This document shows positions 1 through 16,278 of a stretch of 64,000 bases of DNA, piece after piece. A program made the translations under genes and the position numbers. Where the stretch lies: assembly GCF_000240225.1 (NCBI RefSeq), contig NZ_AGUD01000006.1, forward strand, positions 1-64,000, in the 5' to 3' direction. Origin of the DNA: Patulibacter medicamentivorans. Lineage in GTDB: Bacteria > Actinomycetota > Thermoleophilia > Solirubrobacterales > Solirubrobacteraceae. The notes beneath the pieces were generated by a model. The model was not told where the DNA came from, ran no database searches, and was given only the letters and a program-made list of their open reading frames with translations. The stretch's first letter is position 1, and the number at the start of each line of letters is the position of its first letter.

Positions 1-2
1 GG

Positions 3-596
3 CGGCTGCCGGCGATGCTGGCCGAGGCCGACGGCGGGCTCGACGCGCTCGACCGGACCGCCGTCCGGCTGACGCCGCTGGTCCGCGACCTGCGGGCGAG
101 CGCCCCGTCGCTGCGGCGGTTGACCACCGTGCTGCCACGGTTCGCGCGCACCGGCACCCCGGCGCTGGGCGACCTCCAGCGGCTGGCCCGCCGTGGCCGC
201 CCGCAGCTGGCGGCGCTGCGGCCGCTGGCTCGCGACGTCGAGCGGCTGGTCGGCCGTCTCGGAGCCCCGCTCGACCGCGCCCGGCGGCTACTGGTCGACA
301 CCCGCGACCGCGGCGGGATCGACGAGACCCTGCGGCTGCTCTACTCGCTGTCGACCGTCACCGCGCTGCGCGACGACGTCTCGCACATCGTCAGCATCTT
401 CGCCGGCGTCTACCCGCAGTGCCTGCTGAACCGCAGCGCCCCGGGGTGCAGCCACGTCTACGCGGCGCCGGGCAAGGGCCTGGTGCCGGTCAACGACCCG
501 GCGTCCGGCCCGCAGGAGGCGACCGACCGCGCCGCCGCCGACCCCGATCCGACCGTCGAGCGGCTGCGCCGGCGGCTGCGGGAGCTGCTGCGATGA
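3..596 (+). CDS. MCE-family protein, C-terminal part (cut by window edge)
   Basis: This is the end of a gene that begins before the window. The frame is open from base 3, and the visible ~197 residues are the helical tail seen downstream of the MCE domain, rich in Leu/Ala/Arg heptads. A short Cys-containing C-terminal stretch (PQCLLNRSAPGCSH) resembles the conserved tails of its neighbours. MCE proteins are envelope-anchored and carry lipids to a YrbE/Mkl-type ABC importer. That role is inferred from the following genes, since the MCE domain itself lies outside the window. The stop codon overlaps the next start (ATGA at 593), so the genes are cotranscribed and probably translationally coupled. 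Confidence 0.75.
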   Translation, partial: RLPAMLAEADGGLDALDRTAVRLTPLVRDLRASAPSLRRLTTVLPRFARTGTPALGDLQRLARRGRPQLAALRPLARDVERLVGRLGAPLDRARRLLVDTRDRGGIDETLRLLYSLSTVTALRDDVSHIVSIFAGVYPQCLLNRSAPGCSHVYAAPGKGLVPVNDPASGPQEATDRAAADPDPTVERLRRRLRELLR

Positions 597-2027
597 GCGC
601 CGCGACCCGTCGCCGCGCGGACGGCCGCGGACGGCTGCTGGCGATCGGCCTGGCCGGGATCGTGGTCGTGCTGGCGATCGTCGTCGTCGCCTACCGGGCC
701 AACAGCGGCCTGCCCTTCCAGCCCGTCTACGGGATCACCGTCGAGGTGCCGAACGCGTTGCGGCTGGTGCGCAACAACGACGTCCGGATCGCGGGCGTGC
801 GGGCGGGGCGGATCGACCGGGTCGAGGCGGTGGTCGGCGGCCGCAGCACCCACGCACGGCTGACCCTGGCCCTGCGCGAGGACGTCGGGCCGCTGCGCTC
901 CGACACCCGCACGCGGGTCCGGCCGGCGTCGATCCTGGGCACCAACTACCTCGACCTGCTGCCGGGCGAGCACGGGCGCGAGCTGCCCTCGGGGTCGGCG
1001 CTGCCGCTGGCGCGGGCCTCCTCGACCGTCGAGCTGACCGACCTGCTGGACGTCTTCGATCGCGCCAGCGGCCGTCGGCTGCAGGCGCTGCTGGGCGAGG
1101 TCGGTCCGGGCCTCGCCGGCCGCGGCCCGGGTCTGAACCAAGCGCTCGGCGATCTGCCCGGGACGCTCCGCGAGCTGGCGCTGGTCAGCCGCGCGCTGGC
1201 CCGTCCGGCGACCCGCCTGGGCCCGTTCGTGGTCGCGCTCGATCGTGCGGCGCAGGCGCTGGCGCCGGTCCGCGGGGCGCTGGCCGGGGCGATCGAGGGC
1301 GCGGCGGGCACGCTGGCCACGCTCGCCGACCACGGTCCGGCGCGGGCCGCGGCCCTCGACGGCGCGGCCGCCGGCCGAGGCGTCGACCACTCGCGCCTTC
1401 GTGAGGCTGCGGCCGGCGCTCGACGACCTGGCGCGGCTCTCGACCGCGCTCGAGCCGGCGGTCGGGCTGCTGCCGCGGGCGGTCCCGACCGTCAACCGCA
1501 CGCTGACCGCCGGCCTTCGCCCGCTGCGCGACCTGCGGCCCTTCGCCGGCGCCCTCGGCGCGAGCCTGGTCGGGCTCGGCGACCTGGCGCGCACGACCGG
1601 CGTCCGCGGTGCCGTCCAGCGCGCCGCCGACGCGATCACCGCCGCCGACGGCACCCTCCGGACGCTGCTGCCGGCCCAGCTCCAGTGCAACGTGATCGGG
1701 CTCTGGGCGACCAACTTCGCGTCGACCTTCGGCACCCTCGGCACCGGCCAGGGCCCGGCGGTGGCCAACATCGGCGTCACCCACCTGGGGGCCGAGGGCG
1801 AGCTGCTGCAGAACCCGCGGCCGTCGCGCAACGCGAACATCAACCTGCTGCCGAACGCCGACCGCCAGGAGTGCGAGTCGGGCAACGAACCGGTCGACGG
1901 CGGCCAGCAGCTCGGCAACCCGCGCGGCCGCCAGCCGGCGTCGACGCGCGAGACCCGCCAGCAGCCGGCGGTCCGGCGGCTGGCGGACCGCGCCGGCCTG
2001 CTCGACCGCGGGAGGGACGGCCGGTGA
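593..2027 (+). pseudogene. MCE-family protein with apparent frameshift
   Basis: The start ATG at 593 overlaps the preceding stop. Residues ~15-35 form a single membrane anchor, followed by an MCE/MlaD domain (ITVEVPNALRLVRNNDVRIAG, then SILGTNYLDLLPG at about 105-117). The reading frame that begins at 593 stops making MCE-like sense near 1360-1385. The recognisable tail (TRAFVRLRPALDDLARL, then LQCNVIGLWATNF) continues one frame later to the stop at 2025-2027. One extra base, or two missing, in a run of G and C near 1360-1385 would explain this. Restored, the protein would be ~478 residues, a normal MCE size. A sequencing or assembly error is as likely as a real mutation, because the rest of the gene is not degraded. 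Confidence 0.75.
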
Positions 2028-3547
2028 GCGCCGAGGTGGTCCGCCGCCGCGCTCGTCGCGCCCGCACCCGCCGGCTCGCCGCGGCGCTGATCGCGCTGGC
2101 GCTGCTGGCGGCGATTGCCTTCGTCGCCTTCTGGCGCGGCGCGCTCTCGGGCGGCTACGAGATCGAGGCGGTCGTCGGCACCGCCAACCAGCTGCGGCCG
2201 GGGGCGGCGGTCCGGGTCGCCGGCCTCGACGTCGGCCGGCTGGAGGCGATCGAGCCCGGTCCCGGGGCCAGCTCGCGGCTGCGGCTGCGGATCGACGACG
2301 ACGCGCCGCCGATCCACGACGACGCCGGGGTCCGGATCGCGCCGCGGCTGTTCTTCGAGGGCAACGCCGCGATCCGGATCGCCCCTGGCACCGCCGGTCG
2401 GCCGCCGATCCGCCCCGGGGCCACGATCCCGCGCTCGCGGACCAGCGTCGCGGTCCAGCTCGACCAGGTGCTCGACGTGCTGACGACGCCCGTCCGCGAT
2501 GGGCTGCGGCGGACCGCGGCCGAGCTGGACCGCGGCTTCGGCGGCCCGGCCGGGCGGAGCGGCGCCGACGGTCTGCGGCGGGCGACGCGCGAGCTCGACG
2601 GCGCCCTCGCTGACGTGACGACGGTCGAGCGTGCCGTCCGCGGGGTCCGGCCGGGGGACCTGGAAGGGGCGATCGCCGGCACCGCCGACAGCGCCGAGCA
2701 GCTGGTCCGCGACCCGGCGGCGCTCCAGGGCGTGGTCACCAACAGCGCCCGCCTGCTCGCCGCGCTGGCCGACCGCGAGCGGCAGCTGGGGGCGTCGGTC
2801 GACGGTCTGCTGGCGGTCCTCGGCGACGCTCCGGCGACGCTCCGGCGGCTGGACCTGGCGCTGCCGGTGGTCGACCGCTTCGCCGGCGCGCTGCGGCCGG
2901 CGCTGGCGGCGGCCCCGCGGCCGCTGCGGCGGACGGCCGAGGCGCTGGAGCAGGTGCGCGCGATCACCGCCCCCGGCGAGCTGCCGGCGACCCTCGATGC
3001 GCTGCGCCCGATCACCGCCGACCTGCCGCCGCTGGCCGAGCGGCTGACGGGGACGCTGCCGCTGCTGGCCGACGCGATGCGCTGCGTCGACCGCAACGTG
3101 CTGCCGACGCTGCGGATGCAGGTGCCCGACGGCAAGCTCTCGACCGGGCGGCCGGTCTGGCAGGACGCGCTCCACATGGGCGCGGCGCTGGCCGGCGCGT
3201 CGCCGAACTTCGACGGCAACGGCACCACGATCCGGCTCGGCGTGACCGAGGGCGAGCAGGCGCTGGAGGGCGTGCTGCCGGGGATCGGGACCGTCTCGAC
3301 GCTGGCCGCCGACGGCGTCGGATCGCTCAGCCCGGCCTGGCTCGGCTACGGGGTCTCGCCGCCGTTCCGGCCCGACGTCCGCTGCACGACGCAGACCCTG
3401 CCCGACCTCGACGCGCGGTCGAGCGCCCGGCTCCAGGGCTTCCGGCGGACGGCGGCGACGCCGGCCAAGGAGGCCCGGGCGCAGCAGCGCGTGGCCTCAC
3501 GGACACTGCTCAGCCGGCCGCCGCTCGGCGGGAGGGGCGCGCGATGA
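2024..3547 (+). CDS. MCE-family lipid-transport protein
   Basis: The gene encodes 507 residues from a GTG start at 2024 that overlaps the previous stop (GTGA). An Arg-rich N-terminus precedes one hydrophobic anchor (about residues 17-35). The MCE domain follows at about 44-125 (YEIEAVVGTANQLRPGAAV, RVAGLDVGRL, FFEGNAAIRI). A long helical region comes next, and then a tail with MRCVDRNVLPTLR and RPDVRCTTQT. MCE proteins assemble on an ABC permease to shuttle lipids or sterols across the envelope; the substrate cannot be read from sequence. The gene overlaps both neighbours, consistent with one operon. Its stop overlaps the next ATG at 3544. Confidence 0.85.
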   Translation: MSAEVVRRRARRARTRRLAAALIALALLAAIAFVAFWRGALSGGYEIEAVVGTANQLRPGAAVRVAGLDVGRLEAIEPGPGASSRLRLRIDDDAPPIHDDAGVRIAPRLFFEGNAAIRIAPGTAGRPPIRPGATIPRSRTSVAVQLDQVLDVLTTPVRDGLRRTAAELDRGFGGPAGRSGADGLRRATRELDGALADVTTVERAVRGVRPGDLEGAIAGTADSAEQLVRDPAALQGVVTNSARLLAALADRERQLGASVDGLLAVLGDAPATLRRLDLALPVVDRFAGALRPALAAAPRPLRRTAEALEQVRAITAPGELPATLDALRPITADLPPLAERLTGTLPLLADAMRCVDRNVLPTLRMQVPDGKLSTGRPVWQDALHMGAALAGASPNFDGNGTTIRLGVTEGEQALEGVLPGIGTVSTLAADGVGSLSPAWLGYGVSPPFRPDVRCTTQTLPDLDARSSARLQGFRRTAATPAKEARAQQRVASRTLLSRPPLGGRGAR

Positions 3548-4803
3548 CCCGCCGCACCCTCGGCCTCCTGGTCGTCGTCGCCGCGATCGTCGTCACCGGC
3601 GTGGCCGCGGCCGCCTACGTGCTCGTCCACCAGCGGCTGCCGGTGCCGTTCCGCGACGTCTACGAGCTGCGCGCGTCGCTGGTCGCCGCCGACGGCGTGG
3701 CGCCCGGGCTGGGCCAGCCGGTCCAGGTGGCGGGGGTCAAGGTCGGCACGATCACCGCCGCTCGGGTCGAGCGCGGGCGGGCGCTGGTGACGCTGGAGAT
3801 CGACCGCCGCGAGCTGCCGACGGTCCACGCCGACGCCAGCGTCGCGCTGCGGCCCGTGACGCCGCTCGACGACATGCGGATCGAGCTCGACCCCGGCCAC
3901 CGCGCCAGCGGGCCGCTGCCGCCCGGCGGTCGGATCGACCAGGCCCGGACCACCACCCCGGCCGCGCTCGACGAGCTGCTCGGCGCGCTCGACGCCGATA
4001 CCCGCGACTTCCTGGCCTCGCTGATCTCGTCGCTCGACGCCGGCACCGCGGGCCGCGGCGACGACCTCCGGCGGGCGCTGCGGACGCTCGGCCCGACGGT
4101 CGGCCAGGTGCGGCGGATCGCCGCCTCGTTGGCCGGCCGCCGCCGCGAGCTGTCGCGGCTGGTCGGCAACGTCGCGGTGATCACCCGCGCCGCCAGCCGC
4201 GACGACCGCCTGGCCGCGCTGGTCGCCGACGGCAACCGTACGCTGCGCGCGGTCGCCGACCAGGACGCGGCGCTGCGCCAGGCGCTGACCCGCCTGCCGC
4301 GGACGTTGACGACGACCTCGCGGGCGCTGCGCTCGGCCGGCGGCCTGGCCGCCGAGCTGCCGCCGACGCTGACCGCGCTGCAGCCGGCCGTCCGCCGGCT
4401 GCCGGCGACGCTCGCCGCGCTGGAGCCGTTCAGCGGCCGCCTGCGCGACGCGCTCCGCGACGACGTGCGGCCGCTGGCCCGCGAGCTGACCCCGCTGCTG
4501 GGCGAGCTGCGTCCGGCCGTCTCCGGCCTGCGGACGGCGGAGCCCGACCTGCGTGGGGTGCTGCAGTCGACGAACTACCTGCTCAACAGCCTGGCCTACA
4601 ACCCGCCCGGCGACGACGAGGGCTTCCTCTTTTGGGCCTCGTGGTTCGTCCACAACTGGAACTCGCTCTTCAGCACCGCCGACGCCCACGGCGGCATCGG
4701 CCGCGCGATGGTGATGGTCAACTGCGGCCAGCTGACCCAGCTCGCCGACCTCGGTCCGCTCCTCAAGCTGCTGCTCGGCAGCCCGACCCTCTGCCCCGGC
4801 TGA
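3544..4803 (+). CDS. MCE-family lipid-transport protein
   Basis: The protein has 419 residues. The ATG at 3544 overlaps the upstream stop. An N-terminal hydrophobic segment (about 6-27) serves as anchor or uncleaved signal. The MCE domain is at about 36-115 (LRASLVAADGVAPGLGQPV, QVAGVKVGTITAARV, TPLDDMRIELDPG). A long coiled-coil-prone helical part follows, and the tail reads FLFWASWFVHNWNSLFS and ends at a Cys-Pro-Gly. It is the fourth MCE gene visible in the operon. The stop TGA shares its last base with the next ATG (4803), so the order is fixed and translation is probably coupled. Role by family: periplasm-side lipid carrier subunit. Confidence 0.85.
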   Translation: MTRRTLGLLVVVAAIVVTGVAAAAYVLVHQRLPVPFRDVYELRASLVAADGVAPGLGQPVQVAGVKVGTITAARVERGRALVTLEIDRRELPTVHADASVALRPVTPLDDMRIELDPGHRASGPLPPGGRIDQARTTTPAALDELLGALDADTRDFLASLISSLDAGTAGRGDDLRRALRTLGPTVGQVRRIAASLAGRRRELSRLVGNVAVITRAASRDDRLAALVADGNRTLRAVADQDAALRQALTRLPRTLTTTSRALRSAGGLAAELPPTLTALQPAVRRLPATLAALEPFSGRLRDALRDDVRPLARELTPLLGELRPAVSGLRTAEPDLRGVLQSTNYLLNSLAYNPPGDDEGFLFWASWFVHNWNSLFSTADAHGGIGRAMVMVNCGQLTQLADLGPLLKLLLGSPTLCPG

Positions 4804-6227
4804 TGGAGACCCGCACCCCGACCCTCCGCCAGCTGCTGCTCCCGATCGGGTTCGCGCTCTTCTGCGCCGTGCTCGCGCTGGTGGTCTGGCGCAGCTTCGG
4901 CGGGACCGTGCCGCTGGAGCCGCGCGAGTACCGGATCACCGCCAGCTTCCCGCAGGCGTCGAACCTCTTCGCCCAGGCCGACGTGCGGGCGGCGGGGGTC
5001 GACATCGGCCGCGTGACGCGGGTCCACCGCCGCGGCCGGCGGGTCGACGTCGAGATGGCAATCGATCCCCGGATCGCGCCGCTGCGGCAGGGTGCGCGGG
5101 CGATCGTGCGGACCAAGACGCTGCTCGGCGAGACCTTCGTCGAGGTCGCCCCCGGCTCGCGGCGGGCGCCGCTGATCGAGGACGGCGGCCGGTTGCCGGC
5201 GGGCAGCGTGCGGGCGGCGCAGCGACTCGACGACGTGCTGGAGACCTTCGCTCCCGGCACCCGCCGCGACCTGCGCGAGCTGATCGCCGGCAGCGCGCGG
5301 GCGTTCGCCGGCCGCGCCGGCTCGCTCAACGGCGCCGCGGCCCAGCTGGCGCCGGCGGTTGGCGGCGTCGGCGCGGTCCTCCACCGGGTCCGGCGCCAGG
5401 AGGACGGCCTGCGGCGGCTGGTGGCCGGCTCCGGCGACGTGCTGGCGGCGGTCGGCGAGCGCGACGGCGAGATTCGGGCCGCGATCCGGGCGACCGACCA
5501 TGTGCTGGCCGTGACTGACCGGCGGCGGGCGGAGCTGGGGGCGACGATCGAGGCGCTGCCGCCGTTCCTGCGCCAGCTGCGGCGGACCGCCGACGACCTG
5601 GCTGGGGCCGCGCCCGACGTCCGCCGCGCGTCGGCGGCGCTGCGGCGGGCGGCCCCGGCACTGCCGGCGGCGCTGACCGCGGTGGTCCGCGACGGGCCGG
5701 CCTTCGAGCGGCTCTTCCGCGAGCTGGCGCCGGTGCTGCGGACCGGCCGCCGGAGCCTGCCGGCGCTCGACGAGACCGCCTCCGCGGCCCGCTCGGCGCT
5801 GCCGGTGGCCGACGTCGCGATCCGCCAGCTGGTGCCGGTGCTGCGGCTGCTGGAGGCCAACCGCAGCTCGGTCCACGGGGTGCTGGCGAACGTCGGCCAG
5901 ATCCAGAACGGCACGATGGCCGGCCCCGGCAACCGGGTGATCCACTACGGCAACGGCCTGCCGACGATCTGGAACGAGATCGTCGGCGGCTGGGTCAAGC
6001 GGCTGCCGACCAACCGGCTCAACCCGTACCCGAAGCCGGAGAGCCTGCGCGACATCGCCAGCGGCGGGCTCAAGGCCTACGACTGCCGCAACACCGGCAA
6101 CCCGCTCTACCTGCCGCCGATCGGCCCCGGCGCGCCGCCCTGCGTGGAGCAGGGCCCCTGGACCTTCGACGGCGTCCGCGCCTACTTCCCGCGACTGCGC
6201 GAGCAGCCGCCGACCCTCCGTCCCTGA
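4803..6227 (+). CDS. MCE-family lipid-transport protein, last of the operon
   Basis: The protein has 474 residues. I chose ATG 4803 because it overlaps the previous stop by one base and directly precedes the anchor (LLLPIGFALFCAVLALVVW, residues ~11-29). The open frame extends further upstream, but only antisense-like composition lies there. The MCE domain spans ~40-120 (YRITASFPQASNLFAQADVR, AAGVDIGRVTRV, KTLLGETFVEVAPG). The C-terminal part carries QIQNGTMAGPGNRVIHYGNG and a Cys-containing end. Five consecutive MCE genes fit the usual six-gene mce operon whose yrbE pair and first mce gene lie off the left edge. No terminator hairpin is obvious directly after the stop. Confidence 0.85.
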   Translation: METRTPTLRQLLLPIGFALFCAVLALVVWRSFGGTVPLEPREYRITASFPQASNLFAQADVRAAGVDIGRVTRVHRRGRRVDVEMAIDPRIAPLRQGARAIVRTKTLLGETFVEVAPGSRRAPLIEDGGRLPAGSVRAAQRLDDVLETFAPGTRRDLRELIAGSARAFAGRAGSLNGAAAQLAPAVGGVGAVLHRVRRQEDGLRRLVAGSGDVLAAVGERDGEIRAAIRATDHVLAVTDRRRAELGATIEALPPFLRQLRRTADDLAGAAPDVRRASAALRRAAPALPAALTAVVRDGPAFERLFRELAPVLRTGRRSLPALDETASAARSALPVADVAIRQLVPVLRLLEANRSSVHGVLANVGQIQNGTMAGPGNRVIHYGNGLPTIWNEIVGGWVKRLPTNRLNPYPKPESLRDIASGGLKAYDCRNTGNPLYLPPIGPGAPPCVEQGPWTFDGVRAYFPRLREQPPTLRP

Positions 6228-6308: not shown

Positions 6309-7181
6309 ATGCCCACCGCACTCCTGACCGCCACGATCGAGCTCGGCGCCCAGCGTCCGGGCGACGGCCAGATCCCGCTCGCCCCCGTCCTTCACGCCGA
6401 CCACACGGCCGCCCTCGTGATGGTGATCGCGGCCTTCGCCGGCGCCGCCGCCGCGCTGGTCTGGGCGCTGGTCAAGCTCGTCCGCGGCGGCGAGACGCTG
6501 CCGCTGGTGCTGCTCGCGGCCGGCGTCGTGGCGGCGAACATGGAACCGCTCGGCGACCACGTCGGCCTGATCGTCTACGCGCCCGACGTGCCGTGGTTCG
6601 ACTACTGGCTGATGGGCCGCCAGATGCCCTCCTTCATCGCCGTCGGCGAGGCCAGCTACATCGCCTTCGGCGGGTACTACGCCTACCGGATGCTGGCCAC
6701 GGGCCGCTCGGTCGGGCGGGTGGTGCTGATCAGCGCGGTGCTGGTCGGGATCCCCGAGATCCTGGTCGAGGTCGGCTGGCACCACTGGGGGATCATCAGC
6801 TACTACGGCGACAACCCGACCCGGATCCTCGGCGTCCCGCTCTACTCGATCGTCCAGAACTCGACCCTGCTGCCGGTCCTCGGCCTGGTCGCCTTCCTCG
6901 GCGCCGAGCACCTGCGCGGCGTCCAGCGGCTGTGGCTGGTGATCGCGGTCCCGGCGGTCACGATCGGCTACATCGTCGGCGTGAGCTGGCCGGTCTACGT
7001 GGCGATCCAGTCCTCGGCCGCGGCCCCGATCGCGTGGGCGGCGGCGCTCGTCACCTGCGCGGCCTCGATCGGCGGCGCCTGGGCGGCGATCAACTACCCG
7101 GCCGTCCGCCGGCTGCGCAAGGCCGCGGCCGGCGGCCCGGCCCCGGCCACCAGCCCCGCGACCGCGACCGCCGCGGCCTGA
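6309..7181 (+). CDS. 7-TM membrane protein, possible AveC-like family
   Basis: The protein has 290 residues and about seven hydrophobic segments (near 35-58, 64-90, 103-125, 134-155, 175-200, 208-235 and 238-262). It is a clear paralogue of the protein encoded at 11272-12081. Both carry an Asn/Glu-Pro-x-x-Asp motif after TM2 (NMEPLGDH here, NEPFID there), an acidic residue in TM4, and the signature YYGDNPTRI followed by G-x-P and a VQN triplet. The layout recalls membrane proteins annotated as the AveC (spirocyclase) family in actinobacteria. That is a recollection of the family, not a search result, and the enzymatic role is unproven. The start has an RBS (GAGGAG). The P450 gene follows after 15 bp, so the two form one operon. 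Confidence 0.6.
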   Translation: MPTALLTATIELGAQRPGDGQIPLAPVLHADHTAALVMVIAAFAGAAAALVWALVKLVRGGETLPLVLLAAGVVAANMEPLGDHVGLIVYAPDVPWFDYWLMGRQMPSFIAVGEASYIAFGGYYAYRMLATGRSVGRVVLISAVLVGIPEILVEVGWHHWGIISYYGDNPTRILGVPLYSIVQNSTLLPVLGLVAFLGAEHLRGVQRLWLVIAVPAVTIGYIVGVSWPVYVAIQSSAAAPIAWAAALVTCAASIGGAWAAINYPAVRRLRKAAAGGPAPATSPATATAAA

Positions 7182-7196
7182 GCCCGGAGCACGACG

Positions 7197-8594
7197 ATGA
7201 GCCCCACGCTTCACGCCCCGACCCCGACCCCGACCACCCTCGCCCCGTCGGCGCTGCCGCTGCCGCCGGGCCCGCGCGGCCCCGCCCGGCTGCCGGCGCT
7301 GCTGCGGCTGATCCGCGACCCGTGGTTCGGCCCGGCCGCGCTCCAGCGCCGCTACGGCGACGTGATCCGGCTGCCGGTGCCGTTCGCCGAGCTGATCCTG
7401 CTCGGCCACCCCGACCAGATCGCGCAGGTCAACGTCGCCCACCGCGAGCGCTACGGCCGCGCGGCGATGGTCACCGACACGATGCGGGTCCAGGGCTCGC
7501 CCCACCACGCCTCGTGGTTCGAGGACGACGACGGCGAGTGGGCCCGTGGCCGCAAGCTGCTGCAGCCGCACTTCACCCAGAAGGCGCTGGCCGAGCTCGG
7601 CGGCCTCTTCACCGAGGCGATCGTCGAGCAGGTCGACGGCTGGGGCGCGGCGGCCGACCGCGGCGCCCCGCTGGAACTGCACGAGCAGCTGAAGGCGCTG
7701 GCCCTGGCCGTCCTCTACAACGCGATGTTCTCGCGCCGGATCGGGCCCGACGAGATGCACCGTCTGCTGACGACGCTCGACGATCGGATGGTCGCCACCA
7801 CCGTCCGGACAGCGACGTTCCCGCTGCCGGGCTGGCTGCCCCGACCGCGCCAGGCGGCCGGCGCCCGCGGCGACGACTGGCTCGACCACCACCTGGCCGA
7901 GCTGGTCGCCGACCGCCGCGCCGCGCCGACCGACGTGACCGACGTCCTCAACGTGCTGCTCGACGCGCGCTACGGCGACGGGACCCCGCTCGAGGACCAC
8001 AAGATCCGGACCGAGATGCTGTTCCTCGTCATCGGCGGTCACGAGACGACGGCGGCCGGGATGGCCTGGACCTTCGCGCTGCTGGCCCAGCACCCCCAGA
8101 TCGCCGAGCGGGTGCGGGAGGAGGTCGACGCGCTCGGCGGCGCCGCGGTCGGCCCCGAGCACCTGGGGCGGCTGCCGTTCGCCCGCGCCTGCTTCGACGA
8201 GGCCTCGCGGCTCCAGGGCAGCCTGGTGATCAACCCGAAGCTGGCGCTCGAGGACGACGAGCTGGGCGGCTACCGGATCCCGCGCGGGGCGACGGTCCTG
8301 TGGTCGAACGTCACCCTCCACCGCGACCCGCGCTTCTGGGGCGCCGACGCCGACCGCTTCCGGCCCGACCGCTGGCTGGAGGGCAACGCGCCGGCGGCCG
8401 CGTTCCAGGCCTTCGGCCGCGGCCCGCGGATGTGCCTCGGCAAGCGGCTGGCCTACATCGAGGCGGTCTGCACGCTCGCCACCGCCTTCCAGCGCTACCG
8501 CTTCGCGCCGCCGCCGAACTGGGAGATCCGGCACCAGTACCGGATGTCGATGGGCGTCCGCGGCGGGGTGCCGCTGCGGCTCGCGCGCCGCTGA
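7197..8594 (+). CDS. Cytochrome P450
   Basis: This 465-residue haem monooxygenase shows the Pro-rich start (LPLPPGPRGPARLP), the I-helix oxygen-activation motif GGHETT (about residues 281-286), the K-helix ExxR (EASR), and the haem loop FGRGPRMCLG with Cys413 as thiolate ligand. It has no N-terminal membrane anchor, so it is a soluble bacterial P450 that needs ferredoxin/reductase partners not seen here. It is cotranscribed with the 7-TM gene just upstream and faces a second P450 (8615-10075). The two P450s share the unusual LQG right after ExxR, suggesting related substrates, possibly a lipid or terpenoid delivered by the mce system. That last point is inference. Confidence 0.93.
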   Translation: MSPTLHAPTPTPTTLAPSALPLPPGPRGPARLPALLRLIRDPWFGPAALQRRYGDVIRLPVPFAELILLGHPDQIAQVNVAHRERYGRAAMVTDTMRVQGSPHHASWFEDDDGEWARGRKLLQPHFTQKALAELGGLFTEAIVEQVDGWGAAADRGAPLELHEQLKALALAVLYNAMFSRRIGPDEMHRLLTTLDDRMVATTVRTATFPLPGWLPRPRQAAGARGDDWLDHHLAELVADRRAAPTDVTDVLNVLLDARYGDGTPLEDHKIRTEMLFLVIGGHETTAAGMAWTFALLAQHPQIAERVREEVDALGGAAVGPEHLGRLPFARACFDEASRLQGSLVINPKLALEDDELGGYRIPRGATVLWSNVTLHRDPRFWGADADRFRPDRWLEGNAPAAAFQAFGRGPRMCLGKRLAYIEAVCTLATAFQRYRFAPPPNWEIRHQYRMSMGVRGGVPLRLARR

Positions 8595-8600
8595 CCCGCG

Positions 8601-8633
8601 CGCCGCGCTCCGCCTCAGCGGGGGAGCGCGGCG
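8601..8633. terminator. Strong hairpin between convergent P450 genes
   Basis: Perfect 11-bp arms (8601-8611 and 8623-8633) surround an 11-nt loop. The hairpin starts 7 bp after the stop of the + strand P450 and runs into the last codons of the - strand P450. It could act as a bidirectional terminator. No T-tract is present, as is usual at this G+C content. Confidence 0.6.
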
Positions 8634-10075
8634 GCCCGCGGCGGGTGCAGCGTGACCGGGCAGCCGCCCTTCATCCCGGTCGAGATGTGGAACTGGTGGC
8701 GGGGGACGAATCCGGGCGCCAGCCGGAAGCGGTAGCGGCGGCGCGCGGTCACCAGCGCGAAGGCGGCCTCCATGTAGGCCAGCCGCATCCCCATGCACTT
8801 GCGCGGCCCGAGGCCGAAGGGCAGGAAGGCGCCCTTGTGGATCTCGTCGCGCGCGAAGCGGGCGGGGTCGAAGCGCTCCGGGTCGCGCCAGTGGCGCGGG
8901 TCGCGGTGGAGCGCGTAAGGCGAGATCCAGACGATCGACCCGCGCGGCACCCGGTGGCCGCCCAGCTCGGTGTCCTCGATCGGCGTGCGACTGAACATCG
9001 GCCCGCCCTGCAGCCGCTGGGCCTCGTCGAAGACCGCGTGCAGGTAGGGCAGCCGGTCGAGGTCGGCGGCGGTCGGTGGCGCGTCGCCGAGGGCGGCGAT
9101 CTCGTCGTCGAGCGTCGCCGCCACGTCGGGGTGCAGGTCGAGCATCGCGACCGTCCACGAGAGCGCCGAGGCGGTCGTCTCGAAGCCGCCGAAGATCAGG
9201 CCGAACAGCTCGCTGCGCAGCTCCTCGTCGGTCATCGGCCGGCCGTCGTCGTCGACCGCGTCGAGCAGCATCTGGAGAATGTCCGAGCCGCCGTCCGGCA
9301 GCTGCGCGGCGCGGCGCTCGCGAACCATCCGGTCGAGGAAGGCGTGGATCCAGCGGATCGCCCGCTCGCCGCGGCGCTGGTAGGGCAGCGGCAGCCCGCG
9401 CGGGGCGTTGGTGGCGATCATCTTGAAGGCCGCGTAGTAGGCGAAGGTCCGGAAGGCGACCACCGCCTCGTCGATCGTGCGGTCGTCGATCCGGGTGGTG
9501 AACATCGAACGCAGCAGCACCGACATCGTCAGGTCGCTCCAGGGCCCGTCGAGGTCGACCGGGCGGCCGCTGCCGACATGCTCCTGCCAGCGGTCGATCC
9601 GCTCCTCGATCGCCTCTCGCACCAGCGGGCTGACCGCCTCCAGCTGGCGGGCGCCGAACTTCGGGCTCAGCAGCCGCCGCATCCGCTTCCACGGCTCGCC
9701 GTCGGAGACCGGCAGCGGCAGGTGGCGCTCGCTGCTGAAGAGGGCGTAGTTCATCTCGCCCTTGCCGTAGTCGCTCGCCCGCCGGTTGAAGACCTCGACC
9801 ACCAGGTCGGGATCGTTGACCAGGATCAGCTCGGCCCGCCCGGGGACCGGCACGCGCACGACGTCGCCGTAGCGGTCGCGCAGCCGCTCGGGCGCGCGGT
9901 AGATGTCGCGCAGCAGCAGCGGCAGCGCGCCGACCGCGGGCCAGCCGCGGGGCCCGGGCGGCAGGGAAGCCGGCCGCGGCGGTGGCGCGGGCCGGGCGCC
10001 GTGGTCGACCGGGCAGCGCGGGTCGGCCGGCGCGGGCGCTGCGGGGCAGGAGGAGGTCGGCTTGGGAGGCGTCAT
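8615..10075 (-). CDS. Cytochrome P450
   Basis: The protein has 486 residues. After a Pro/Ala-rich N-terminus it shows SLPPGPRGWP, the I-helix motif GGFETT, the K-helix ExxR (EAQR) and the haem loop FGLGPRKCMG with Cys427 as iron ligand. It is related to, but clearly different from, the P450 at 7197-8594 (same LQG after ExxR, same RLAYxE after the haem loop). It is the last gene of the - strand unit TetR > 7-TM protein > kinase-like protein > P450, 21 bp after the kinase-like gene. The N-terminal ~35 residues (with a CP..DHGARP stretch) have no counterpart in the + strand P450. Redox partners are not encoded nearby. Confidence 0.93.
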   Translation of the reverse strand: MTPPKPTSSCPAAPAPADPRCPVDHGARPAPPPRPASLPPGPRGWPAVGALPLLLRDIYRAPERLRDRYGDVVRVPVPGRAELILVNDPDLVVEVFNRRASDYGKGEMNYALFSSERHLPLPVSDGEPWKRMRRLLSPKFGARQLEAVSPLVREAIEERIDRWQEHVGSGRPVDLDGPWSDLTMSVLLRSMFTTRIDDRTIDEAVVAFRTFAYYAAFKMIATNAPRGLPLPYQRRGERAIRWIHAFLDRMVRERRAAQLPDGGSDILQMLLDAVDDDGRPMTDEELRSELFGLIFGGFETTASALSWTVAMLDLHPDVAATLDDEIAALGDAPPTAADLDRLPYLHAVFDEAQRLQGGPMFSRTPIEDTELGGHRVPRGSIVWISPYALHRDPRHWRDPERFDPARFARDEIHKGAFLPFGLGPRKCMGMRLAYMEAAFALVTARRRYRFRLAPGFVPRHQFHISTGMKGGCPVTLHPPRAAALPR

Positions 10076-10096
10076 CGGGAGCGGTTCGCGGGGAGG

Positions 10097-11275
10097 TCAG
10101 GCGGCGACGGCGGCGAAGGCGTCGTGGTCGAGGCAGGCGCTGCCGATCCGGCGCAGCATCTCGCCGGAGACCTCGCGCGGCTGCATGTCGCCCGGCATCA
10201 GCCGCGGCGGGCTGAAGGTCGGCGCCCAGAAGGCGAGCGCGCCCCACAGCTGGGCGCGGTAGCGGTCGCGCAGCGCCGGCGGGTCGGCGGCGGGCCCGCC
10301 GCGGCGGTGCAGCTCCTCGCCGTAGAGCGCCAGCAGGTCGTCCTCCCAGGCCCGCCGGTCGTCGACGGCGAGGACGGTCGAGAGCGCGTAGGCCAGGTCG
10401 CGGGCGCCATCGCCGAGCACTACCCCCTGCCAGTCGCATAGCCCGATCCCGCCAGCGGCCGGGCGGTACCAGTTGCCCAGGTGGACGTCGTTGTGGAGCA
10501 GCGTCGGCGGCCGGCTCTCGTGGGCGGCGATCGAGGCCAGCACCGCCCGCCAGGTGCGCGCCGGATCGGCCCGCAGCGAGCGGTCGAGCAGCTCGCCGCA
10601 CTCGCCCAGGCAGCGGCGGAAGGCCGACTCGACGTCGACCAGGGCGAAGGCGTCGCGCCACTGCCGCCCGTAGCTCTTGAAGCCCGCGGGGGGACGGCCG
10701 GCGAAGGTCGCGTGGACGGTGGCGAGGGTCCGCACCACCTGCTCGGCGTCGGCCTGGTCGACCTGGTCGCTCGGCTGCAGGAAGGTCGCGCCCTGGGTCG
10801 CCACCAGGTCCTCGAGCAGCAGCACGGTGGCCATCCGCCGCTGGTCGTAGGCGCCGTGGTGGCAGCACGGGGCGGCGACGTCGAGCTGCTCACGCAGCTG
10901 CAGGTAGAACCGCGCCTCGACGAGGCCGCTGATCGCCTGCGTGATCCGCTGCAGGACGCCGGGGCTGGACTTCGCGAAGACCGTCTCCGGCAGGCCCAGC
11001 GGAGCCGGGTCGCGGTCGTAGCGCAGCCGCAGCCGGTGTCGGCTGGTGGTGCCGTGGGAGCCGTCGATCAGGTCGACGGCGACGACCCGCGCGCGCCCGT
11101 CGGGACAGAGGGCGCGGCTCATCCAGGCCGGCGTCAAGTCGGCCACCCGCGTCGGCGCGACGGTCGGATCGTCGCTGCGGACAGGGCGCAGCCGCTCGAC
11201 CGCGACGCTGGCGGCGATCCGTCCGAGCTGGGGCACGGCACGGGCACGGCCGCCCCACCGTCGCAGCGGGCTCAC
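10097..11275 (-). CDS. Aminoglycoside/ecdysteroid-kinase-like phosphotransferase
   Basis: The protein has 392 residues. The GTG start at 11275 overlaps the stop of the upstream gene by 4 nt. The catalytic loop of the APH/choline-kinase-like fold is visible near residue 260 as LLHNDVHLGNW (HxDxxxxN), followed by LCDWQ, the metal-binding Asp. Upstream, VFAKSS (about residue 100) would supply the nucleotide-binding Lys, and LLLEDL is the usual hinge. The DWQ variant is typical of the EcKinase (DUF227)-like branch, whose members phosphorylate small hydroxylated molecules such as steroids. Sitting between a 7-TM gene and a P450 gene, it may phosphorylate a hydroxylated product. The substrate is inferred only from context. 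Confidence 0.75.
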   Translation of the reverse strand: MSPLRRWGGRARAVPQLGRIAASVAVERLRPVRSDDPTVAPTRVADLTPAWMSRALCPDGRARVVAVDLIDGSHGTTSRHRLRLRYDRDPAPLGLPETVFAKSSPGVLQRITQAISGLVEARFYLQLREQLDVAAPCCHHGAYDQRRMATVLLLEDLVATQGATFLQPSDQVDQADAEQVVRTLATVHATFAGRPPAGFKSYGRQWRDAFALVDVESAFRRCLGECGELLDRSLRADPARTWRAVLASIAAHESRPPTLLHNDVHLGNWYRPAAGGIGLCDWQGVVLGDGARDLAYALSTVLAVDDRRAWEDDLLALYGEELHRRGGPAADPPALRDRYRAQLWGALAFWAPTFSPPRLMPGDMQPREVSGEMLRRIGSACLDHDAFAAVAA

Positions 11276-12081
11276 GCGGGCTCCGCCGTCGTCGTCGGCG
11301 GCTGGGCCGGCACGGCGGTCCGCTGGCGGTCGAGCGTGAAGCGCAGCATCGCCAGCGGGATCGCGGCGTTCATCATCGCGGCCAGCGCCCCGAGCAGCAG
11401 GAACGGCACCGTGCTCGCTCCGCCGTGCAGGGCCAGGTAGGCGGGCCAGGTGCAGAGCAGCGCGACCGCGTAGTAGCAGCCGGGGATCACCGGCAGGAAC
11501 AGCAGCGCTCGCCAGCCGCGCAGGTGGGGCGCCGCCAGCGTCAGGATCGAGGCCATGAACACGTAGAGGAAGGCGTTCTGGACCATGCTCGTGATCGGCA
11601 GCCCGAAGATCCGCGTCGGGTTGTCGCCGTAGTACTCGAAGACGTTGGCCTGGATCGCCATGATCTCCAGCGGCCAGTCGATCACCCCGGCGACGACCGC
11701 GATCAGCACGATCCGCTGGAACGACGCGCCGCCGACGATCAACCGGTGCAGGAACCAGGTGAAGAGCGAGAACATCGCCCCGATCCCGAGCGCGCTGACG
11801 GGGATCACCCGACCGGCCAGCGTGTAGAGCTCGCCCGGCGCATCGGACGCGTACTGGAAGCCGAGGATCGCGTCGATGAACGGCTCGTTCGGCAGCCAGG
11901 CGGTGGCGCTCGCCAGCACCACCAACGGCAGCGCCGAGCGCAGCCGCAGCGCCTCGCGCCCGGCGACCAGGAACGACGCCGCGACCATCGCGAACGTCGC
12001 CCCGGCGAAGATCCAGAAGACCGTCGCGCTGGCCCCGGTCAGGGGGCCGGCCGGATCGAGGAAGCCGCTCTGCGCGCCCAC
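11272..12081 (-). CDS. 7-TM membrane protein, paralogue of 6309-7181, possible AveC-like family
   Basis: I chose the GTG at 12081, two bases after the TetR stop codon. The frame is open further upstream but there overlaps the TetR gene and loses hydrophobic pattern. The 269-residue product has about seven membrane segments. It shares with the 6309 protein the NEPFID motif, a TM4 acidic residue (DWPLEI), and YYGDNPTRI with a following VQN. Conserved acidic residues within membrane segments suggest an enzyme or transporter rather than a structural protein. It is translationally coupled to TetR upstream and to the kinase-like gene downstream (4-nt overlap). The AveC-family assignment is from memory of layout only. 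Confidence 0.6.
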   Translation of the reverse strand: MGAQSGFLDPAGPLTGASATVFWIFAGATFAMVAASFLVAGREALRLRSALPLVVLASATAWLPNEPFIDAILGFQYASDAPGELYTLAGRVIPVSALGIGAMFSLFTWFLHRLIVGGASFQRIVLIAVVAGVIDWPLEIMAIQANVFEYYGDNPTRIFGLPITSMVQNAFLYVFMASILTLAAPHLRGWRALLFLPVIPGCYYAVALLCTWPAYLALHGGASTVPFLLLGALAAMMNAAIPLAMLRFTLDRQRTAVPAQPPTTTAEPA

Positions 12082-12083
12082 GG

Positions 12084-12734
12084 TCAGGCGGCCTCGACCG
12101 CGGCCCGGACGACCGTGTCGGCGAGCGTCCGCAATCGCTGGCCCTCGGCGTCGAGCAGCACGCCGTCGCGGGTCAGGAAGAACGACGCGTTGAGCCGCAC
12201 CACCACCTCGGCCATCCGCCGCGCATGAACCGGATCGAGGTTGCCGGTCGGGTCGACGAAGCGGGCCAGCGCGGCGGTCGCGGCGCGCAGCCACGGTCCG
12301 CCGCGGTCGGTCAGGTGGGGGACGATCGCCCCCGGCTCCTCGGCCAGCAGGTGCGAGGCCAGCGGGTGCTCGGCCGCGGCGCGGGCGCCGACGGCGAACG
12401 CCTCGACCGCGCGGTCGACCGGGTCACGCAGGGACTCGGCGGCTGCGGTCAGTGTGACGAAGAACGCGTGGGTCTCGCGCACGAGGATCCGGCGCAGCAG
12501 CTCGTCCTTGCCGCCGAGTCGGCGGTAGGCGGTCGGGCGAGAGACGCCGGCGCGGCGGGCGATGTCGGTCAGCGAGGTGCGCGCCACGCCATAGCGGGCG
12601 AACTCGGCGGTGGCGACGTCGAGCAGCGCCTTCAGCTCGCCGTCGCCGCTCGCCTCCGGGTCGACGGCGATGTCGAGCAGGGCGGCGAACGGGGCAGCAG
12701 CGTCGGCGGGCAGGTCGGGAGAGGGCGAAGGCAT
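12084..12734 (-). CDS. TetR-family transcriptional regulator
   Basis: The 216-residue protein has an N-terminal extension of ~35 residues and then a TetR helix-turn-helix (TSLTDIARRAGVSRPTAYR, residues ~53-71). The C-terminal ligand-binding half is variable, as usual. It is the first gene of the - strand operon and overlaps an inverted repeat that also spans its -10 element (12733-12760), so autorepression is likely. By context it should control the 7-TM, kinase-like and P450 genes below it, and possibly the mirror-image + strand pair. The ligand is unknown. Confidence 0.88.
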   Translation of the reverse strand: MPSPSPDLPADAAAPFAALLDIAVDPEASGDGELKALLDVATAEFARYGVARTSLTDIARRAGVSRPTAYRRLGGKDELLRRILVRETHAFFVTLTAAAESLRDPVDRAVEAFAVGARAAAEHPLASHLLAEEPGAIVPHLTDRGGPWLRAATAALARFVDPTGNLDPVHARRMAEVVVRLNASFFLTRDGVLLDAEGQRLRTLADTVVRAAVEAA

Positions 12735-12760
12735 GAGACGGCTAGACGATAGCGTCTCAT
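12733..12760 (-). promoter_or_regulatory. TetR promoter with overlapping inverted repeats
   Basis: Two nested symmetries lie over the TetR start: 8-bp arms ATGAGACG / CGTCTCAT (12733-12740, 12753-12760), and AGACG-ATAG-CGTCT (12744-12757). On the - strand a -10-like TATCGT (12746-12751) ends 11 nt before the ATG, so the transcript has almost no leader. A repressor bound here would block its own promoter. Upstream, the rest of the gap to 13328 holds the IS3 remnant and the promoter of the ABC operon. Confidence 0.5.
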
Positions 12761-13150
12761 CGACTCTCGTGGTCGCTTTTGATCGCGCTGCACCTGCTTG
12801 CGGCGGATCGCGGCCGGCCGGCGAGCGCCATCCGGAGCGCGTCGAGGACCAGGTCGGTGCGCGGGTGCGACGCGAACTGCCAGCCGACCACTCGACGCGA
12901 GAGCATGTCGAGCACGACGCTGAAGAACGCGGGTCCCCTGCCGTCGCGCAGCAGCGCCTTCCAGGCCCGGTGAGACCCGTACGCCGCGTAGCTCGCGGCG
13001 TGCACCTGCCGGATCCGCTTCAGCAACACCCCATCCCCAATCGCCCGGCTGGACGAGGTGCGTCGTCGAGGCACGTCCGCTCCGCGAGCGTCCTCGACCA
13101 GTGCCAGATCGGCGATGTCGTCCTGAATGCGGAACCGCCCCCGTGTTTTC
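12757..13150 (-). mobile_element. Degraded IS3-family insertion sequence (transposase remnant)
   Basis: On the - strand, fragments of an IS3-type OrfB transposase can be read: RIRQVHAASYAAYGSHRAW (N-terminal part, about 12960-13025) joined directly to FFSVVLDMLSRRVVGWQF and RTDLVLDALRMAL (start of the rve integrase domain, about 12830-12930). The stretch between these blocks and everything after the second catalytic Asp region is missing, so it is an internally deleted, dead copy. At 13125-13155 the sequence GGAACCGCCCCCGTGTTTTC resembles the terminal repeat of actinobacterial IS3 elements. The remnant sits at the left edge of the catabolic island and may mark its insertion point. Confidence 0.6.
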
Positions 13151-13161
13151 CCCGAATCGGG

Positions 13162-13193
13162 CGAAGTTTCGCTGATCGGCTCCCGCCTACAGT
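13162..13193 (+). promoter_or_regulatory. Candidate promoter of the ABC-importer operon
   Basis: A -10-like TACAGT (13188-13193) lies 135 bp before the 13329 start codon. A small inverted repeat CGAA-GT-TTCG (13162-13171) stands about 16 bp upstream of it, where an activator could bind. No good -35 was seen. The ~130-nt leader after it shows no riboswitch that I recognise. Confidence 0.3.
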
Positions 13194-13328
13194 CGCGAAA
13201 CCAGCCCGTTCGATCGCTGTGGCCGCAGTCGTGGCGATGCATGCGAGCCTCACGGCATCGGACGGTCCGGGGAGAGACGGTCGGCCGGCGGGTTCGGAAC
13301 TCGTTCGCCTGAAACTGAGGAGAGAGCA

Positions 13329-14360
13329 ATGTCCCTATGTACTTCGAGGCGGGCGCAACCGTGGTCGCGCGTGCTGTGCGTCCTCGCGACGGTCGGCCTC
13401 GCGGTCGGTGCGGTCGGATGTGGCGGCGACGACAGCTCGGGCTCGCGGCCCGCGGCCGCGGCCGGATCGTCCGGCGCGCTTCAAGAGGCGCGCGTCGTCG
13501 CCTTCCCGGCGAGCCAGATGCTGACGCCGTACATCGCGCGTGACGAAGGGCGGTTCGAGGCGGTTGGGCTGCCCGTCAAGATCGAGATGTTCTCGGCCGG
13601 GTCCACCGCGAACATCCTTCCGCAGGTCCTGGCCGGCAAGCTGCAGATCGCGCAGACCGCGCTGGCCGACATCGTGCCCGCGATCGCCAGCGGCCAGCCG
13701 CTCCAGGTCCTGCCTGGATTCGGCACCCTCATCGAGGGCAGCGTCGAGACGAGCACGAACACGATCGTCACCGACGACCCGTCGATCAAGGAGTTGAAGG
13801 ACCTCGCGGGCAAGAAGGTCGGCCTCAACGCGCTCCGCACGTCCCACGAGCTCTACCTGCGCGCGCAGCTCGAGAAGGCCGGAGTCGATGCCGACTCCGT
13901 CACGTTCGTCGCCGTGCCCTTGGCCAACATGGCCGCGTCGATCAAGAAGGGCCAGATCGACGCCGGACAGGCGCTCGAGCCCTTCATCAGCCTCGCGGAG
14001 GGCGCAGGGATGCACCGCGTGGCGGCGATCGGGGCGGGCGTCGCCGACGGCCTGCCGTCGGTGGTCTTCTGGACGAGCCGCAAGTACGCCCAGGAGCACC
14101 CGGACGAGATCGCGGCCTTCGCGAAGGCGATGAAGGCGACGATCACGGAGTCGCTCGCGTCCAACCCGAAGGGCGTTGCCGACTACATGAAGAAGTACAC
14201 GGAGATCCCGCCCGAGGCGATCAGCCAGATCGCCAACTTCGGGACCTTCTCGACCGACGTGACCCCGGAGAAGATCGAGCAGGTCGCCAAGGTGCTCGAG
14301 CAGGCCGGCGGCATCAAGTCCGTTCCTCCGCCGAGCGAGTGGATCGTCGGCCAGCAGTGA
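13329..14360 (+). CDS. ABC transporter substrate-binding lipoprotein (SsuA/TauA/NMT1 type)
   Basis: The protein has 343 residues, with an RBS (GGAGAG) just before the ATG. A lipoprotein signal ends in the lipobox VGAVGC (Cys ~34), followed by a Gly/Ser/Ala linker. The mature part has the type-II periplasmic binding fold of the SsuA/TauA/NMT1-THI5 group (YIARDEGRFEAVGLPVKIEM, then SAGSTANILPQVLAGKLQIA). These proteins capture small anions such as sulfonates, aromatic acids or pyrimidine precursors outside the membrane. Two permeases and one ATPase follow, completing an importer. Since the operon leads into a catabolic island, the cargo is probably the substrate degraded there, but it cannot be named from sequence. 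Confidence 0.88.
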   Translation: MSLCTSRRAQPWSRVLCVLATVGLAVGAVGCGGDDSSGSRPAAAAGSSGALQEARVVAFPASQMLTPYIARDEGRFEAVGLPVKIEMFSAGSTANILPQVLAGKLQIAQTALADIVPAIASGQPLQVLPGFGTLIEGSVETSTNTIVTDDPSIKELKDLAGKKVGLNALRTSHELYLRAQLEKAGVDADSVTFVAVPLANMAASIKKGQIDAGQALEPFISLAEGAGMHRVAAIGAGVADGLPSVVFWTSRKYAQEHPDEIAAFAKAMKATITESLASNPKGVADYMKKYTEIPPEAISQIANFGTFSTDVTPEKIEQVAKVLEQAGGIKSVPPPSEWIVGQQ

Positions 14361-14377
14361 CGCGCTGAGCGAGGGGC

Positions 14378-14402
14378 GCGACGCCGTTGCCGGCGGCGTC
14401 GC
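14378..14402 (+). terminator. Hairpin after the binding-protein gene
   Basis: Perfect 9-bp arms GCGACGCCG / CGGCGTCGC with a 7-nt loop start 17 bp after the stop codon. No T-tract follows. Inside an importer operon, such a hairpin commonly attenuates readthrough or protects the abundant binding-protein mRNA. Confidence 0.5.
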
Positions 14403-14499
14403 ACCCCGCGATGCGCAGTTGTCGGCGGCCTCCTGGCCCTCGACGCGCCTGTTCTCGTCCTGAACGCGGAGAGTTGGCTGATTCGTCATCAGCTCGAGA

Positions 14500-14530
14500 C
14501 GAAGTCGCGACTTCGGCCCGCTCGTAGCAT
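14500..14530 (+). promoter_or_regulatory. Internal promoter with 16-bp perfect palindrome
   Basis: CGAAGTCGCGACTTCG (14500-14515) is a perfect palindrome placed 9 bp upstream of a -10-like TAGCAT (14525-14530). The permease start (14555), with its RBS GGAGG at 14542-14546, follows. The palindrome sits in the -35/spacer region, so it is a candidate operator giving the permease/ATPase genes separate control. Confidence 0.45.
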
Positions 14531-14554
14531 CGATCTGTCGTGGAGGTCTCGTAG

Positions 14555-15427: not shown

Positions 15428-15465
15428 CGAATGCCGCACACCACCGCAAGGAGGTCACACGACCC

Positions 15466-16275: not shown

Positions 16276-16278
16276 GCG

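Follow-up and report, generated by a model that had tools for sequence, protein, structure and literature searches.

Gene content of the cluster

The subject of this report is a gene cluster at positions 6309 to 12734 of the window, by which we mean the whole stretch of 64,000 nucleotides that was analysed, corresponding to positions 1-64000 of contig C348 (100107 bp) of Patulibacter medicamentivorans, whose 5.09 Mb genome is assembled in 353 contigs (coded G000 below). The cluster stands next to an mce operon (1..6227, plus strand) that is cut by the contig start, the window beginning at contig base 1. Delineated by PF02470 matches and by an Mce profile of our own, this operon opens with a truncated Mce piece (3-305) and carries four adjacent MlaD domains (728-967, 2153-2389, 3661-3897 and 4926-5156; PF02470), all on the plus strand; no YrbE gene was seen in the part lying right of the contig start. 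It is followed on the same strand by 7TM_A (6309..7181), which encodes a seven-transmembrane (7TM) protein of 290 amino acids that family searches and hhalign suggest to be a remote AveC_like relative, and, 15 bp downstream, by P450_A (7197..8594), which encodes a cytochrome P450 of 465 amino acids and of the ExxR-LQG type (PF00067, E 8.2e-61). The minus strand carries a second operon, headed by a gene for a TetR-family regulator (12084..12734; PF00440, E 1.2e-12) and continuing with 7TM_B (11272..12081; about 269 amino acids), a paralogue of 7TM_A by identity and by tree, with the gene of an APH/EcKL-type small-molecule kinase (10097..11275; 392 amino acids), which shares a 4 bp overlap with 7TM_B, and with P450_B (8615..10075; 486 amino acids; PF00067, E 1.3e-77), placed by tree as the ExxR-LQG-type paralogue of P450_A. 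All six genes have intact frames. The start of 7TM_B is probably the GTG at 12081, which was preferred because the listed open reading frame (ORF) start at 12294 overlaps the TetR gene.

An earlier note on this DNA, made from the sequence alone, had described two operons converging on one hairpin, each with a member of one 7TM family and a P450 of one LQG subtype, and one of them also with TetR and an EcKinase-like phosphotransferase. The gene content proved accurate. 7TM_A and 7TM_B belong to one family (31% identity, E 7.9e-25 in the family search), and P450_A and P450_B are 40% identical, both match PF00067 and both are of the ExxR-LQG type; the signatures ExxR and FxxGxxxCxG, which we take to be cytochrome P450 motifs, are present in each. 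The regulator matches TetR_N, and the kinase scores above both Pfam cut-offs, with 54.1 bits for APH (PF01636, cut-off 23.2) and 34.9 for EcKL (PF02958, cut-off 22). Its likeness to these kinases extends to the sequence HNDVHLGN, which fits HxDxxxxN, presumably the catalytic-loop motif of APH/EcKL kinases; no solved relative was found by phmmer at E ≤ 0.01. The convergence of the two P450 genes across a gap of 20 bp also holds, but the hairpin does not. The candidate, at 8575..8640 (-44.7 kcal/mol), was rejected as a special signal, being no better than chance (z -1.28; equalled or surpassed by 18 of 200 shuffles), and a scan reported no terminator-like site between the P450 genes. The gene pairing exceeds chance, whereas the hairpin has no such support from shuffles.

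The 7TM family and its kinship with AveC_like proteins

Neither 7TM_A nor 7TM_B matched any Pfam family at E ≤ 1 or scored above the cut-off of any NCBIfam model, and no well-known transporter family, the alternative identity that the earlier note had held against its own proposal, was matched by sequence in either collection. A search of a plasmid collection gave no match. Within a panel of 101 related genomes (G codes; L codes designate loci read out), the family occurs in eight, often as neighbouring copies. A scan of genome contigs yielded 24 loci, two of them contigs of G049 already counted, in Mycobacterium, Mycolicibacterium, Mycobacteroides, Nocardia, Nocardioides, Antrihabitans and Solirubrobacterales. 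Besides 7TM_A and 7TM_B, the window's own genome has a third and more distantly related copy on contig C163, near an mce operon other than the one beside the cluster. Neighbours were counted at 42 loci picked solely for the presence of a 7TM gene, some of the stretches ending at contig ends and two duplicate G049 contigs (L079 and L082) being excluded; these loci hold 82 copies, with at least two copies at 24 of them. Alignment of 76 members (10 of the 86 clustered 7TM ORFs fell outside 235-320 amino acids and were excluded) showed conservation of E79 (59/76), P80 (67/76), D83 (60/76) and E154 (59/76), and further of Y165 (65/76), P170 (68/76), N184 (64/76) and G204 (75/76). E79 and D83 precede the third helix of the protein, and E154 lies in the fourth.

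That the family might be AveC-like had been a guess of the same note, which the direct Pfam test did not bear out: a search of the window's genome with the AveC_like model PF17198 matches genes other than 7TM_A and 7TM_B. The guess fared better in profile-profile comparison and in the co-occurrence of the family with true AveC_like genes. The AveC set was drawn from 26 loci, two of which were dropped (one a fragment, one below cut-off); 22 of the remaining 24 passed the model search, and the final profile held 35 rows from 34 genes, the AveC gene of G078 entering twice (L065 and L121). Comparison by hhalign of the 76 7TM rows with these 35 PF17198 rows gave, over 158 columns, a probability of 96.0% (E 3.9e-9, as one comparison), against 0.98% for reversed AveC, 1.28% for reversed 7TM, 0.05% for MlaE and 4.6% for COX3. 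With the deeper AveC profile, single-profile searches crossed weakly in both directions (best 1.5e-7 in a small set). The hhalign alignment places acidic motifs of the two families opposite each other, namely EPxxD of the 7TM proteins and DPxxN of AveC, with E79-P80 facing D147-P and the helix-4 residue E154 facing E239; D147 is found in 32 and E239 in 31 of the 35 AveC rows. AveC_like genes occur in seven of the 101 relatives, all seven among the eight with 7TM (hypergeometric 4.7e-10, a value that ignores relatedness, the genomes not being independent). These eight genomes span three families and six genera, and six of the eight genomes of the window's own genus are without both 7TM and AveC_like. 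Judged by a profile-profile match that stands above its controls, the 7TM proteins appear to be distant kin of the AveC_like superfamily. The window's genome also has two true AveC_like genes, at L018:214-1197 and L016:18266-19189, each on a contig that carries an mce operon as well.

Passages of two papers (PMC6490886, PMC4581413) describe AveC as indispensable for the spiroketal to form and as a dehydratase in its own right, and one paper names the spirocyclase AveC as an indel marker. The 7TM proteins differ from AveC in several respects beyond the silence of the Pfam model: no polyketide synthase was found in the 24 neighbour clusters scanned around 7TM loci; the window's cluster has two 7TM paralogues, each with a P450 of its own; and the helix lists of the structure models would place the extra helix of the 7TM protein at the C-terminal and not at the N-terminal end, the AveC model being a poor one. 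The order of helices in the 7TM_A model (predicted local distance difference test score, pLDDT, 87; predicted template modelling score 0.82) nevertheless looks compatible with that in the AveC model (pLDDT 70), as compared by list and not by superposition.

Pairing with P450s and the wider module

Trees of the two families run in parallel. The 7TM_A clade, in the tree of 76 rows, comprises the window, G049, G015, G035 and two Mycobacteroides loci, and its sister (support 100/96) is a 7TM_B clade comprising the window, G035, G015, G049 and Nocardia africana. A P450_A clade (window, G015, G035 and two Mycobacteroides) and a P450_B clade (window, G049, G015, G035 and Nocardia) are likewise sisters, with a joint support of 100/99. 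All 10 clade P450s carry ExxR-LQG, and LQG is absent from the 15 other P450s of the tree and from eight further ones. When up to 16 candidates per genome were scored with P450_A across the 101 relatives, clade P450s (E < 1e-80) were found as seven copies in G000, G015, G035 and G049 only, after which E jumps from 1e-90 to 1e-50 (next match 1.4e-50). The same four genomes hold the 7TM_A and 7TM_B clades, and every clade P450 copy lies in a 7TM/mce cluster.

P450_A adjoins 7TM_A at all five loci that hold P450_A; in G049, 7TM_A stands at a contig end. P450_B adjoins 7TM_B in G015 and Nocardia; in the window the kinase gene lies between the two, and in G049 they are on different contigs. In G035, P450_B adjoins an AveC_like gene (PF17198, E 4.8e-32), a further point of likeness between the two membrane protein families, and an mce operon separates this pair, at its far end, from the pairs EcKL-7TM_B and 7TM_A-P450_A, at its near end. 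The mirror-image 7TM/P450 units of the earlier note are kept in the mapped loci as a pairing, but not as a mirror-image layout. That the two proteins act as a set, as the note had proposed, finds good support in their parallel paralogy and in the narrow range of genomes in which they co-occur, and the simplest account of the two trees would be that the 7TM/P450 pair was duplicated jointly and kept.

The kinase is, by tree, orthologous in the window, G035, G015 and G049; it adjoins 7TM_B in all of these except G015, where it follows P450_A. The fullest relative of the cluster, in G035 (L063 and L157), has EcKL, 7TM_B, TetR genes, 7TM_A, P450_A, TetR, two YrbE, six Mce, AveC_like, P450_B and a flavin monooxygenase; the ORF cluster of the window's TetR recurs at L061 and L063. 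The survey of relatives thus uncovered the conserved neighbourhood on which the earlier note had staked its proposal. A second type of module, found mostly in mycobacteria and also on contig C163, combines 7TM, TetR, DUF7064, APH, AveC_like, a CrtO-like oxidase and a further 7TM gene in varying order, sometimes with YrbE/Mce; the C163 copy is without an AveC_like gene. Both types repeat the combination of an oxidase, an AveC-superfamily membrane protein and a kinase, while the oxidase and kinase families differ. The cluster on C163 (L015:1431-17991) has a DUF7064-like gene, TetR, the third 7TM copy, APH, DUF7064/7065, the CrtO-like oxidase, two YrbE and six Mce genes, in an order resembling the mycobacterial loci. 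Across the 42 loci, CrtO/amine-oxidase-like genes occur in 26, a kinase in 25, a P450 of any type in 15, AveC_like in 12 and DUF7064 in 20, and 23 loci combine a P450 or CrtO/amine-oxidase gene with an APH/EcKL kinase. DUF7064 was rejected as a marker of the module, being present in 30 of the 101 relatives, seven of those among the eight with 7TM.

Passages of one paper (PMC4263727) describe a close counterpart of the second type, the genomic island MmGI-1 of Mycobacterium massiliense JCM 15300, with a beta-carotene ketolase, a 291-amino-acid hypothetical protein, TetR, a 354-amino-acid hypothetical protein, a phosphotransferase, YrbE and Mce. Its gene order, so far as described, matches L098/L093, and the 291-residue protein is presumed by position and size to be a 7TM protein. 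The presumed 7TM genes are annotated there as hypothetical, and their tie to the family comes from gene order and sizes and not from alignment. In MmGI-1 the places of the window's LQG P450s and EcKL are taken by a CrtO-like oxidase and APH. Among the literature matches listed, this was the one paper on such a module, although others may exist.

The association with mce genes that the earlier note had seen holds for the A/B type, with mce genes adjacent in the window, G015, G035, G049 and Nocardia, but it is not universal: at the two Mycobacteroides loci with 7TM_A-P450_A no mce gene was seen. Distances to listed MlaD matches (53 of 91 in G015, 16 on G035 contig C1) place all five 7TM/AveC genes of G015 at most 17 kb, and four of the five on G035 contig C1 at most 15 kb, from a listed mce domain, where the background within 20 kb is at least 14.5% and at least 7.8%, respectively. 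MlaD/Mce domains number 88 in the window's genome and 91 in G015.

Two other kinds of neighbour were seen among the 42 loci. Phosphoenolpyruvate (PEP)-utiliser mobile-domain proteins lie near 7TM genes at six of them (L069, L076, L087, L093, L094 and L098); they resemble PEP synthase and rifamycin phosphotransferase at scores under the cut-off and are perhaps a third kind of phosphotransferase. A protein resembling cytochrome oxidase subunit III adjoins a 7TM copy at seven loci, for example at L084:19456-20055, L085:2303-2905, L097:9086-9673 and L073:12446-13009, with no further oxidase subunit among the scanned neighbour clusters.

Proposed function and its alternatives

We propose, at about an even chance of being right, that the 7TM proteins form a divergent branch of the AveC_like superfamily, each served by a narrow-clade P450, and that together with the kinase, TetR and the mce importer they constitute a lipid-converting module. 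Remote homology, parallel paralogy, co-occurrence and a conserved neighbourhood underlie this proposal; from them we infer an enzymatic activity of the 7TM proteins, its chemistry, the order of steps and the class of substrate. The Mce system would import a hydrophobic, isoprenoid- or polyketide-like molecule, which the P450s may hydroxylate or ketonise at two positions. The resulting hydroxy-ketone could then be cyclised or dehydrated within the membrane by the 7TM proteins, with E79, D83 and E154 as candidates for acid-base chemistry; the kinase would phosphorylate a remaining hydroxyl and so trap or activate the product, and TetR would control the module.

A number of observations weigh against this proposal. 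With 12-13 AveC sequences the hhalign probability was only 63-65%, and the 7TM-AveC link thus depends on profile depth; a shallow model of 13 AveC rows retrieved no 7TM row, and PF17198 was unmatched by both 7TM proteins at E ≤ 1, leaving them outside the family by the Pfam gathering score. In the 7TM tree some branches were flagged as long by the tree tool, among them those at the base of the A/B group. E79 and E154 are each missing in 17 of the 76 members, and one mechanism therefore cannot be common to all of them. Genes for mce or YrbE were found in just 15 of the 42 loci, within the stretch read; in G035 the listed mce domain nearest to one 7TM copy is 75 kb away, and another copy is on a different contig, C4. 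The AveC model is poor (pLDDT 70), for which reason the two folds are not well comparable, and the top fold match of 7TM_A is a homologue of a lipid sensor and not an enzyme.

This last match is the starting point of the main alternative, which is possible but distinctly less probable: the 7TM proteins may be non-enzymatic, Insig-like lipid-binding partners of the P450, giving it access to its substrate by retaining the imported lipid or by tethering the P450 to the membrane. VIA-align placed the 7TM_A model best on MvINS (4xu4/4xu6), the mycobacterial homologue of Insig, with Z 8.5, a root-mean-square deviation (rmsd) of 3.2 Å, 137 aligned residues and 18% identity, the next row being a G protein-coupled receptor (Z 6.6, rmsd 6.0); the P450 pairing would suit a scaffold as well as an enzyme. 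A Z of 8.5, however, is below the caution level of about 13, under which helical bundles may share only a common arrangement, and Foldseek returned nothing better than E 0.33 for 7TM_A and nothing better than E 0.27 for 7TM_A or the AveC model. L083:7097-8374, being too long, was not included in the structure alignment. For the AveC model the VIA list was set aside as apparent noise (best Z 5.7, rmsd 6.6). The likeness to MvINS is thus one of partial fold in a model. No sequence match between MvINS and 7TM proteins emerged from searches of the PDB by phmmer and by profile, which found no relative and gave two chance matches at E 1.4 and 1.8, and the INSIG model PF07281 was unmatched by the 7TM proteins at E ≤ 1. 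PF07281 matched none of 296 genomes of the phylum at E ≤ 0.001, the controls being silent too, and scored above cut-off in none of 396 Mycobacterium genomes (best 6.3e-4); of nine Mycobacterium loci inspected by eye and rejected, five resemble one transporter family, three seem to be antisense frames and one seems to be another membrane protein. MvINS is described as a sensor homologue and not as an enzyme in a title cited in PMC7815742. AveC, as far as the two papers named above describe it, is an enzyme, and kinship with it, together with the conserved acidic residues, favours catalysis. A broader idea would join the two readings: bacterial Insig, AveC and the 7TM family might be branches of a single ancient superfamily of membrane proteins that handle lipids, acting in bacteria as P450- or CrtO-coupled in-membrane cyclases or dehydratases fed by mce importers, with the animal sterol sensor Insig as a non-enzymatic descendant; we regard this as quite improbable.

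It is unlikely, too, that the cluster makes a lipid or terpenoid instead of importing and converting one, with the mce operon as a mere neighbour or an exporter. Related 7TM loci often have a CrtO-like ketolase/desaturase gene (ORF cluster 1, 25 loci; its best NCBIfam model is CrtO, below that model's cut-off), and AveC works in biosynthesis, according to passages of PMC6490886 and PMC4581413. Against this, no terpene or polyketide synthase was found in the 24 of 52 ORF clusters (at least three loci each) that were scanned with Pfam; the scanned clusters include AMP-binding ligases, acyl-CoA (coenzyme A) dehydrogenases and CoA transferases and therefore look more like breakdown, and an mce operon is described, in a passage of PMC4263727, as required for taking up and using cholesterol. 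A chance gathering by drift, conceivable in a genome as rich in mce operons, TetR genes and P450s (24 matches, next to its 88 MlaD domains) as this one, is very improbable given that clade P450s occur, among the candidates scored in the 101 genomes, only where the 7TM_A and 7TM_B clades do, that Nocardia and Mycobacteroides retain the 7TM/P450 pairing, and that the other mce stretches read from the window's genome, C163 excepted, are without 7TM.

Mce importers are numerous, and to our knowledge the cargo of most of them is unknown. In the present case several actinobacterial genera link an Mce importer with a specific set of oxidase, AveC-superfamily membrane protein and kinase, and the question of cargo may therefore be approached by metabolite comparison of gene deletions. 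The superfamily, known from the building of avermectin, would also extend to a large family with likely members among the proteins called hypothetical in the portions of the MmGI-1 paper cited above.

At the edge of the cluster lies a remnant of an insertion sequence (IS), an IS3-family transposase (12757-13329; NF033516 and rve, both below their cut-offs). Past this remnant, at 13329-17139, an ATP-binding cassette importer of the sulfonate type is encoded, with an NMT1-like binding protein, a permease and an ATPase, which looks unrelated to the cluster.

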